Of a stretch of 64,000 nucleotides of DNA, positions 580 to 21,581 are shown piece after piece (position 1 is the stretch's first letter; the number at the start of each line of letters is the position of its first letter). The DNA comes from Phyllobacterium endophyticum (GTDB lineage Bacteria > Pseudomonadota > Alphaproteobacteria > Rhizobiales > Rhizobiaceae). The translations under genes and the position numbers were made by a program. Under the pieces are notes generated by a model. It worked only from the letters and a program-made list of their open reading frames with translations, did not search any database and was not told where the DNA came from. Where the stretch lies: positions 1,178,001-1,242,000 of the forward strand of contig NZ_PGGN01000001.1 in NCBI RefSeq assembly GCF_003010935.1. The letters are read 5' to 3'.

Positions 580-617
580 ATTTTGCGATCCGATTAGGAA
601 ATACTGGCGCTGCGTTT

Positions 618-748
618 ATCTCCCGCCTTGCGGGAGAGAAAGGATTTTCCTGGATTTAGCCTGTTTGCTAAATCCTTGGAAAATCCAGTGAGGGGGTAGT
701 CCGATGATTGCAAATCCCCTCGTTATCTCCTCCGCAAGGGAAGATAAG
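618..748. repeat. Compound palindromic intergenic repeat (copy A plus an inverted half copy)
   Basis: Bases 618-697 hold two consecutive hairpins: ATCTCCC/GGGAGA, then a long stem made of GGATTTTCCTGGATTTAGC and GCTAAATCCTTGGAAAATCC, followed by GAGGGGGT. Bases 715-748 repeat the outer parts in the opposite orientation (ATCCCCTCG, then a TTATCTCC...GGGAAGATAA hairpin) without the central stem. Copies of the same family lie at 13097, 13545 and 21506. It sits between puuA and the puuB-like gene, so if these are co-transcribed it will be part of the message and could act as a stability or processing site. Confidence 0.85.
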
Positions 749-13000: not shown

Positions 13001-13096
13001 CAACTCACGACAACTGCACGGCCTCTTATTCTTGGTCGAATGCAACTCTGCGTTCGTTGTGTCGCAGTCAATTCGCTTCAAGATATGGCACTGGTT

Positions 13097-13178
13097 ATCT
13101 CCCCCCATTGTGGGGGAGAAAGGATTTTCTTGAATTTAGCATCTCGCTAAATTCTTAGAAAATCCAAGAGAGGGGATC
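13097..13178 (+). repeat. Palindromic intergenic repeat, copy B (left flank of DUF559 gene)
   Basis: Layout: ATCTCCCCCC...GGGGGAGA hairpin, then AAAGGATTTTCTTGAATTTAGC / GCTAAATTCTTAGAAAATCC long stem, then AAGAGAGGGGATC. The same ends and module order occur in copies A, C and D. Its orientation is opposite to copy C, so B and C form an inverted pair around the DUF559 gene. Confidence 0.9.
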
Positions 13179-13208
13179 AAAGCAATCAGGCAGGATATCC
13201 CACCAAAG

Positions 13209-13592
13209 GTGCGGACCTATGCCCGGGGAATGCGTAGAGACGCGACCCTGGCAGAAAATCTCTTGTGGCAAGCAATCCGAAACAACCGGCTTGGTGGTTT
13301 AAAATTCAAGCGGCAGGCGCCGCTTCTCAGCTATATCACGGATTTTGCCTGCTTTGGTTCAAAGCTGATCGTAGAACTGGATGGCAGCCAACACTCGGGA
13401 TCAAGTTCAGATTTGGAGCGGGATAGACGTTTGGAAGCGGCAGGTTTCAAGACGCTACGTTTCTGGAACAATGAGATTTTGGCAATCTGGACGGGGTATG
13501 TTCGCAGATATTGTATGAAGCGAGCAAACGATAAGGTGGGTCCAATCCCCTCTCTTGCGATTTCTAGCACTTGGCAAGGGCCAAGATGCTGA
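13209..13592 (+). CDS. DUF559 (Vsr/REase-like fold) endonuclease-family protein
   Basis: A 127-residue protein with the DUF559 pattern: MRRDATLAENLLWQAIRNNRL, GLKFKRQAPLLSYITDFACF, LIVELDGSQHS, ERDRRLEAAGFKTLRFWNNEI. The Asp in TDFAC, the Glu in VELDGSQH and the following Gln match the catalytic positions of the very-short-patch-repair-like nuclease fold. The start used is a GTG at 13209, because the conserved region begins right after it and no better ATG lies upstream. The last 16 codons lie inside repeat copy C, so the C-terminus (VGPIPSLAISSTWQGPRC) is repeat-encoded. Function in cells is unknown for the family; DNA cleavage is inferred from the fold. Confidence 0.85.
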   Translation: MRTYARGMRRDATLAENLLWQAIRNNRLGGLKFKRQAPLLSYITDFACFGSKLIVELDGSQHSGSSSDLERDRRLEAAGFKTLRFWNNEILAIWTGYVRRYCMKRANDKVGPIPSLAISSTWQGPRC

Positions 13593-13622
13593 AATCGCTT
13601 TCTCCCCCACAAGGGGGGAGAT
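13545..13622 (-). repeat. Palindromic intergenic repeat, copy C (right flank, inverted)
   Basis: Reverse complement of the family layout: ATCCCCTCTCTTG at the left, CTTTCTCCCCCACAAGGGGGGAGAT at the right. The central stem differs from copies A, B and D (GCGATTTC...GAAATCGC with an inner CTTGGC/GCCAAG), while the ends are conserved. It overlaps the 3' end of the DUF559 gene by 48 bases. Confidence 0.88.
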
Positions 13623-19746: not shown

Positions 19747-19846
19747 TTGGCGATTTGACGGAAGAAATACCCCAACGGCACTCCTCCTCCCGGCCGTAGG
19801 GGAAGCAAGACTTCATGGCTCCTCCCGCCTGGTCTTGCGCTGATGG

Positions 19847-19880
19847 AAAAAGGCCGGATCCTCCCCCGGCCTTTTTCTTT
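19847..19880. terminator. Intrinsic terminator after the phasin gene
   Basis: AAAAAGGCCGG and CCGGCCTTTTT form an 11-bp stem around an 8-base loop, followed by CTTTTTTC on the plus strand. The A-run at the left means it could also work leftward. Confidence 0.88.
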
Positions 19881-19967
19881 TTTCAGTTTGTGCCTGTCTT
19901 TGTTGCATCGAACCCTTGCAAAAAGCCTGAATCCTTCGTATGTGACGCCTGTCAAAAATGGTGTTAT

Positions 19968-20044
19968 GCGGTCGTAGCTCAGTTGGTTAGAGCGCAGGAT
20001 TGTGGCTCCTGAGGTCGGTGGTTCGAATCCACCCGTCCGTACCA
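19968..20044 (+). tRNA. tRNA-His (anticodon GTG), CCA encoded
   Basis: A full cloverleaf of 77 bases: D arm GCTC/GAGC, anticodon stem CAGGA/TCCTG with loop TTGTGGC, T arm GGTGG/CCACC with TTCGAAT, then discriminator A73 and CCA. Base -1 is T, not G, and position 73 is A rather than C, so the usual G-1:C73 identity pair of tRNA-His is absent, as is known for alphaproteobacteria. By my fold, position 5 against 68 is a T-T mismatch in the acceptor stem and 1-72 is G-T. A T-run follows directly and may terminate transcription. Confidence 0.95.
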
Positions 20045-21505: not shown

Positions 21506-21581
21506 ATCCCCTCTCTTGGATTTCCAAGGATTAGCGAGCGGCTAAATCCAGGAAAATCCTATCTCCCCCACAAAGGGAGAT
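21506..21581 (-). repeat. Palindromic intergenic repeat, copy D
   Basis: Reads in the same (inverted) orientation as copy C: ATCCCCTCTCTTG, then GGATTTCCAAGGATTAGC / GCTAAATCCAGGAAAATCC stem, then ATCTCCCCCACAAAGGGAGAT. The central stem matches copies A and B, while the end modules match B and C. Confidence 0.9.

Follow-up and report, generated by a model that had tools for sequence, protein, structure and literature searches.

A DUF559 nuclease gene is paired with inverted palindromic repeats in many bacterial phyla, suggesting a role in their spread

In the 64,000-nucleotide stretch of DNA analysed here (the window; Phyllobacterium endophyticum, contig NZ_PGGN01000001.1, positions 1,178,001 to 1,242,000), a small nuclease gene of unknown role (DUF559) lies between two inverted copies of a hairpin repeat, and we found that the same pairing recurs in many bacterial phyla, with a likely case beside the DUF559 gene ycjD of E. 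coli. We conclude that DUF559 nucleases are tied to these repeats and probably drive their spread, as RAYT transposases do for REPs but with an unrelated enzyme, although cutting and movement have not been demonstrated and the role in dispersal is inferred from genome comparisons.

A DUF559 gene fills the centre of a repeated two-hairpin element

Profile searches confirmed the observation of the first-pass annotation, which had described inverted copies of a two-hairpin repeat (copies B and C) around a single DUF559 gene, and agreed with its boundaries to within two bases. The features are as follows, in window coordinates (contig coordinates minus 1178000):

13096..13176 (+), half 1 of the element (copy B): outer hairpin ATCTCCCCC/GGGGGAGA, inner hairpin GGATTTTC.../...GAAAATCC, inward tail GAGAGGGG
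13209..13592 (+), DUF559 ORF (GTG start, 127 codons; Vsr/EDxHD-fold nuclease by prediction), domain 13209-13484, reading frame shifted near 13478 so that the C-terminus is altered and overlaps half 2
13545..13621 (-), half 2 of the element, inverted (copy C): outer hairpin ATCTCCCCC/GGGGGAGA, inner hairpin GCGATTTC.../...GAAATCGC, inward tail GAGAGGGG
616..695 (+), lone half 1 (copy A; C4:1178616-1178695), no partner found by profile, no gene
21507..21580 (-), lone half 1 (C4:1199507-1199580), no partner found by profile, no gene

Each half folds as two hairpins, with z -6.4 for half 1 and -8.1 for half 2 against 200 shuffles each, and no shuffle was as stable. In contrast to the first-pass annotation, which treated B and C as copies of the same repeat, we found that they are two sub-types, with inner stems GGATTTTC and GCGATTTC respectively, that occur in fixed pairing in the places examined. 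No Rfam family matched the repeats at gathering scores; the window gave only a tRNA (19968-20041) and, beside it, the alphaproteobacterial sRNA ar14 (19765-19881; 60 bits, just above its cut-off of 58.8).

A search of the 5.5-Mb genome (G000) with copy B gave 29 places, that is, 28 other matches with half 2 among them, and profile searches of the 3-kb stretches around these places revealed a strict grammar. Fifteen elements consist of half 1, a spacer of 15-24 bp and inverted half 2 (one with a partial half 2), whereas only the element described here has 368 bp with the DUF559 gene in place of the spacer. At six places only one half was seen, and one place is a hairpin fragment. The 526-bp unit is thus the gene-bearing form (the cassette) of a common gene-less element of about 182 bp (the composite). 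Within the genus the element was matched in 18 of 19 genomes, four of them only weakly (best E 9e-7 or worse), with up to 80 matches, a count that was reached in two genomes and may be an upper limit of the search. Of three plasmid records that match the unit, two are Phyllobacterium, each with a gene-less copy of about 176 bp.

The ORF matches Pfam PF04480 (DUF559) at 120 bits against a cut-off of 20.6, with only a sub-threshold REase_MTES_1575 match besides, and is the only match to the family in this genome. An AlphaFold model of the window protein, built from an alignment of 30 sequences (mean pLDDT 82), was most similar in a Foldseek search to 3hrl (E 7.7e-6) and then to the catalytic domain of the homing endonuclease I-Bth0305I (3r3p, E 5.4e-4), with Toxoplasma mitoribosomal chains and, more weakly, E. 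coli Vsr (1vsr, E 0.033) following. By sequence profile 3hrl is a clear relative (E 2e-37) and I-Bth0305I a distant one (E 0.008), and residues D50, E61, D63 and H67 are invariant in 30 sequences. However, relative to its orthologue in G018 and copies in G012 and G011, three other genomes of the genus, the window gene has a one-base gap near 13478. The catalytic core is in frame, but the last part of the domain is lost (the Pfam match ends at 95 of 109) and the frame runs into copy C. The window's own copy may be inactive or dying, and the argument rests on its relatives. We found no PADLOC family and no PHROG for the window protein; a relative gave one weak DpdF hit and weak PHROG hits. By eye, the two flanking genes look like an ABC permease and an AsmA-like protein.

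DUF559 genes are associated with inverted repeats across the order and in other phyla

To determine whether this arrangement could be due to chance, we first examined 20 genus genomes, of which 16 have DUF559, with 26 genes in all. Seven are bracketed by inverted halves of this family at much the same distance, five as half 1/half 2 and two with both arms best matched by the half-2 profile. These seven cassettes lie at five loci: those of G000 and G018 are orthologous; G013 and one of the G011 copies share a gap but with the cassette in opposite orientation relative to the neighbours, reflecting either cassette inversion or two independent insertions; and G012, the other G011 copy and G009 share no more than the cassette plus at most about 100 bp with the rest over 8-kb stretches. 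The cassettes of G012, G000 and G018 share up to about 100 bp of flank around a GC-rich hairpin (CCCGGACGAGCTGG...CCGTCCGGGTT), although G012 lies at another locus. These short shared edges show that some of the gaps carry related intergenic sequence, so the insertions may prefer certain sites. The other DUF559 subfamilies in the genus mostly carry a different palindrome of about 110-170 bp directly before or after the gene; one of them sits behind its own palindrome in a conserved place before a possibly GFA-like gene starting MSLDNKPVYTGGCQCGAVRFR or similar.

We next took the 100 best DUF559 hits by E-value outside the own genome from 150 genomes of the order, 69 of which have a match, together with 20 of the 26 genus genes, and looked for inverted repeats of 40 bits or more within 150 bp. 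An inverted repeat or palindrome was found at 77 of 100 order loci and 19 of 20 genus loci, against 29 of 370 ORFs in the same stretches (9 of 168 of those up to 200 codons), and 57 of 100 genes were sandwiched between two arms against 1 of 370. At 60 bits the counts were 52 of 100 against 17 of 370. Fisher p values (7e-43 and 1e-44) ignore relatedness and should be read loosely. Some loci are orthologues from sister genomes, two of the 100 loci resolved to the same gene (no association), leaving 99 distinct genes, overlapping windows can share control ORFs, and the controls are greedy longest ORFs of 90 codons or more rather than annotated genes. Of the 120 loci, 24 showed no association, and many DUF559 genes lie beside a complete palindrome rather than inside it.

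A scan of named genomes gave 80 loci, the best hits only, of which 71 have 300 bp or more on both sides. Of these, 49 were associated against 23 of 189 control ORFs, and 39 against 0 were sandwiched. One of the 71 is also a locus of the order set. By record title, 41 of the 71 are outside Alphaproteobacteria and 26 of these are associated, among them Desulfobacterota, Chloroflexota, Gastranaerophilales, Nitrospirota, Rhodanobacter, Pseudoxanthomonas, Pseudomonas and Legionella, while 15 of the 41 are not. In addition, of seven loci read out of 40 matching records of a plasmid collection, without control ORFs, six have inverted repeats at or near the gene. A Deinococcus gene has 94.6% identical arms; a Pseudanabaena gene has complete palindromes on both sides (CCCCCTAAATCCCCCAATTCTGGGGG...), which may explain other abundant cyanobacterial repeats; Azospirillum has palindromes up- and downstream; Picosynechococcus, Neisseria and an E. 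coli record have inverted copies close by, mostly downstream; and Synechocystis B12 has none. These results support the functional coupling of nuclease and repeat that the first-pass annotation had inferred, although that the nuclease recognises or moves the repeat remains an inference.

Many of the repeats resemble the E. coli BoxC/intrastrand triplex motif

In the order and cross-phylum sandwiches examined, most arms consist of a hairpin like CCCTCTCCC-loop-GGGAGAGGG, sometimes a second hairpin, and a G-rich tail like GGGTGAGGGG. By a crude pattern, the tail faces the gene in 30 of 43 order sandwiches (3 outward, 5 both, 5 unclear) and in 26 of 38 cross-phylum ones (6, 3 and 3, respectively), a count that also took in two loci near contig ends. 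Many cross-phylum halves are, by eye and nearly letter for letter, the E. coli repeat named BoxC, later PIT and later the intrastrand triplex motif (TM_ECO; PMC4666352). In MG1655 the DUF559 gene ycjD is at 1351407-1351760, and copy 9 of the 23 listed copies of this motif, at 1351204-1351239, is about 170 bp away in the same gap. By eye, another BoxC-like hairpin overlaps the 3' end of ycjD itself. However, ycjD is not sandwiched, as its other side has a different hairpin.

Nuclease and repeat co-vary

Across 89 loci (those with a detected arm, minus five), for pairs in different genomes, repeat similarity rises with protein similarity (Mantel r 0.32, 0 of 2000 permutations; 0.21, 0 of 1000, when genus-genus pairs are left out). 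Paralogues in one genome usually carry unlike repeats, with exceptions (genomes G090, G161, G136 and G139), and joint inheritance of a gene and its neighbouring repeat could explain part of this co-variation.

We also counted the hairpin pattern CCCTYYCC-N2-10-GGRRAGGG in the 150 order genomes, where the reversed pattern gives 0-5. The 52 genomes with a solid DUF559 hit (84 bits or more) have a median of 21.5 and a mean of 49.6 hairpins, whereas the 81 without have a median of 0 and a mean of 2.6. Within the 15 families that have both kinds, 12 go in the same direction (stratified permutation p 0.0002). A further 17 genomes with weak or partial matches, which were set apart, have a median of 1; among them G096 and G100 have DUF559 matches with a stop inside and G084, G149 and G157 only weak or split matches, yet they hold 27, 5, 91, 80 and 13 hairpins, respectively. 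The correlation is not without exceptions, as 11 of the 81 genomes without DUF559 still have five or more hairpins (up to 47, in G087) and 6 of the 52 have fewer than three. Inside the genus alone the evidence is weak: 6 of the 14 genomes with strong composite matches carry the cassette-type nuclease and 0 of 5 others, and the genus genome G004 has 80 composite matches but no cassette-type DUF559.

The element varies in position and decays to solo hairpins

The gap beside the permease gene that holds the cassette was sought in 19 genus genomes that have this gene. A full cassette match is present in only 2 (G000 and G018), both of which have the repeats, so the gene was not found here in relatives without repeats. 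G012 has a gene-less composite in the same gap, G016 another palindrome, and G017 inserted genes, two small ORFs that may be a HicA/HicB toxin-antitoxin pair; the others show no cassette match, and several gaps differ too much to align. The unit thus comes and goes, but no clean junction could be read. Likewise, when twelve G004 elements were searched in six relatives and nine candidate sites were read, none was clean and no target duplication was found: three keep a solo hairpin, three, all at one element, have a GC-rich terminator-like hairpin where G004 has the 182-bp element, as if the element replaced or landed in it, and three are too diverged to read.

The same decay was seen in E. coli. 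At hrpB-mrcB, MG1655 has a full BoxC pair, two strains have only one hairpin with both outer ends, retaining different loops, and two have none. Two E. coli alleles without the pair show no duplication by eye. The retained loops imply two separate deletions by recombination or slippage between the two hairpins. At alx-sstT another strain has a solo hairpin, and deletions in inverted pairs that leave a hairpin have been described (PMC4666352). We also considered ycjD as an insertion polymorphism, but genomes that match only up to query base 364 turned out, in the two read, to have an RND efflux operon with a TetR regulator following fabI, with similarity to MG1655 ending about 40 bp before its BoxC copy next to ycjD, so this is no empty site.

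Discussion

The explanation we favour, with reasonable but not full confidence, is that the 526-bp unit is a minimal selfish element, in which a single-domain DUF559 nuclease gene lies between two inverted halves to which the nuclease is cognate, each with a GC-rich outer hairpin and a G-rich tail that here faces the gene. We propose that the nuclease nicks or cuts at the hairpin/tail when the repeat is single-stranded or extruded, for example at a replication fork, and that repair or strand transfer copies the unit elsewhere. Shorter units that keep both ends but lack the gene, such as the 182-bp composites here and BoxC pairs in E. coli, would spread in trans, and recombination between the near-identical outer hairpins would later delete the centre and leave a solo hairpin. 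Support for activity on DNA comes from the Caulobacter DUF559 protein VsrA, which is needed for an SOS response in a methylase mutant, although its authors propose mismatch repair (PMC12907096). More tentatively, and in our view somewhat less likely than not, DUF559 units may be a pan-bacterial class of autonomous elements of about 0.4-0.6 kb, whose only protein is a single-domain EDxHD/Vsr-fold nuclease acting as transposase, and the source of BoxC/intrastrand-triplex repeats from E. coli to cyanobacteria.

Other explanations appear less likely. The repeats could be primary and DUF559 a homing-type parasite that cuts gene-less copies and is copied into the cut without spreading the repeats themselves. 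The predicted fold is close to that of I-Bth0305I, the gene sits exactly where gene-less copies have their spacer, and G012 has a composite in the gap where G000 and G018 have the cassette. However, this does not explain why repeat number rises with DUF559 presence within families, nor the genes that lie beside a complete palindrome, and one DUF559 gene per genome beside 15 gene-less targets is poor homing. It is similarly unlikely that DUF559 is a housekeeping nuclease that resolves cruciforms or repairs mismatches in these unstable repeats, lying beside them for regulation or substrate supply while another enzyme spreads them. The weak fold similarity to Vsr and the VSP repair proposed for the Caulobacter protein (PMC12907096) are in its favour, but the gene is patchy, varies in position and is flanked by repeats as a transposase is, and control ORFs are almost never found between such repeats. 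Finally, a shared preference of DUF559 genes and GC-rich hairpins for permissive intergenic or terminator sites, with no functional link, is very unlikely; the terminator-like hairpins found in three relatives at one G004 element are consistent with it, but the rarity of repeats at neighbouring ORFs in the same loci, the close sandwiching and the matching of repeat type to nuclease type all speak against it.

BoxC/PIT repeats have been known in E. coli since the 1990s and are counted in more than 260 genomes, but in the parts consulted PMC4666352 gives no enzyme or origin for them, and its main text does not contain the words 'endonuclease', 'Vsr' or 'DUF'. The Pfam entry of the widespread DUF559 family, in turn, still reads 'unknown function'. 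Linking the two, which we did not find in print in searches of an open-licence library, gives a candidate cause for one and a candidate function for the other. The window's repeat itself may have been listed before among published Rhizobiales repeats such as RIME or Bru-RS, which are probably likewise short palindromic intergenic repeats.

Compared with BoxC, which also forms inverted pairs and undergoes partial deletions that leave a hairpin, the window copies do not fit the triplex definition of a pyrimidine stem, a purine stem and a third purine strand with loops of 1-6 nt, since a second hairpin of about 45 nt lies between stem and tail. The gene-less composites, short non-coding elements with terminal inverted repeats in several copies, are fairly described as MITE-like, but no target duplication was found. 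With EDxHD homing endonucleases (I-Bth0305I) and Vsr the nuclease shares its predicted fold, but no intron, intein or coding target was seen, and the window gene lies between repeats in intergenic DNA.

The comparison with REP/REPIN-RAYT (TnpA_REP) systems made in the first-pass annotation holds as an analogy but not as membership. The signs by which RAYTs were tied to REPs (PMC2817692), namely flanking inverted repeats, co-variation of enzyme and repeat, and correlation of copy number with enzyme presence, are all found here, and repeat copies without the gene occur genome-wide. However, the enzyme is a DUF559 protein of predicted EDxHD/Vsr-like fold with no Y1 HUH transposase domain (PF01797), there is no GTAG or CGTC tag (PMC3733652) at the foot of the hairpin, where copies B and C read ATCTCCCCC at the outer foot and GAGAGGGG at the inner end, and the repeats are CTCCC/GGGAG hairpins with a G-rich tail. 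They are found in many phyla, whereas the 2010 study found RAYTs meeting its criteria only in gammaproteobacteria (PMC2817692). If the nuclease does move the repeats, it would be a second, independently evolved solution to what RAYTs do for REPs.
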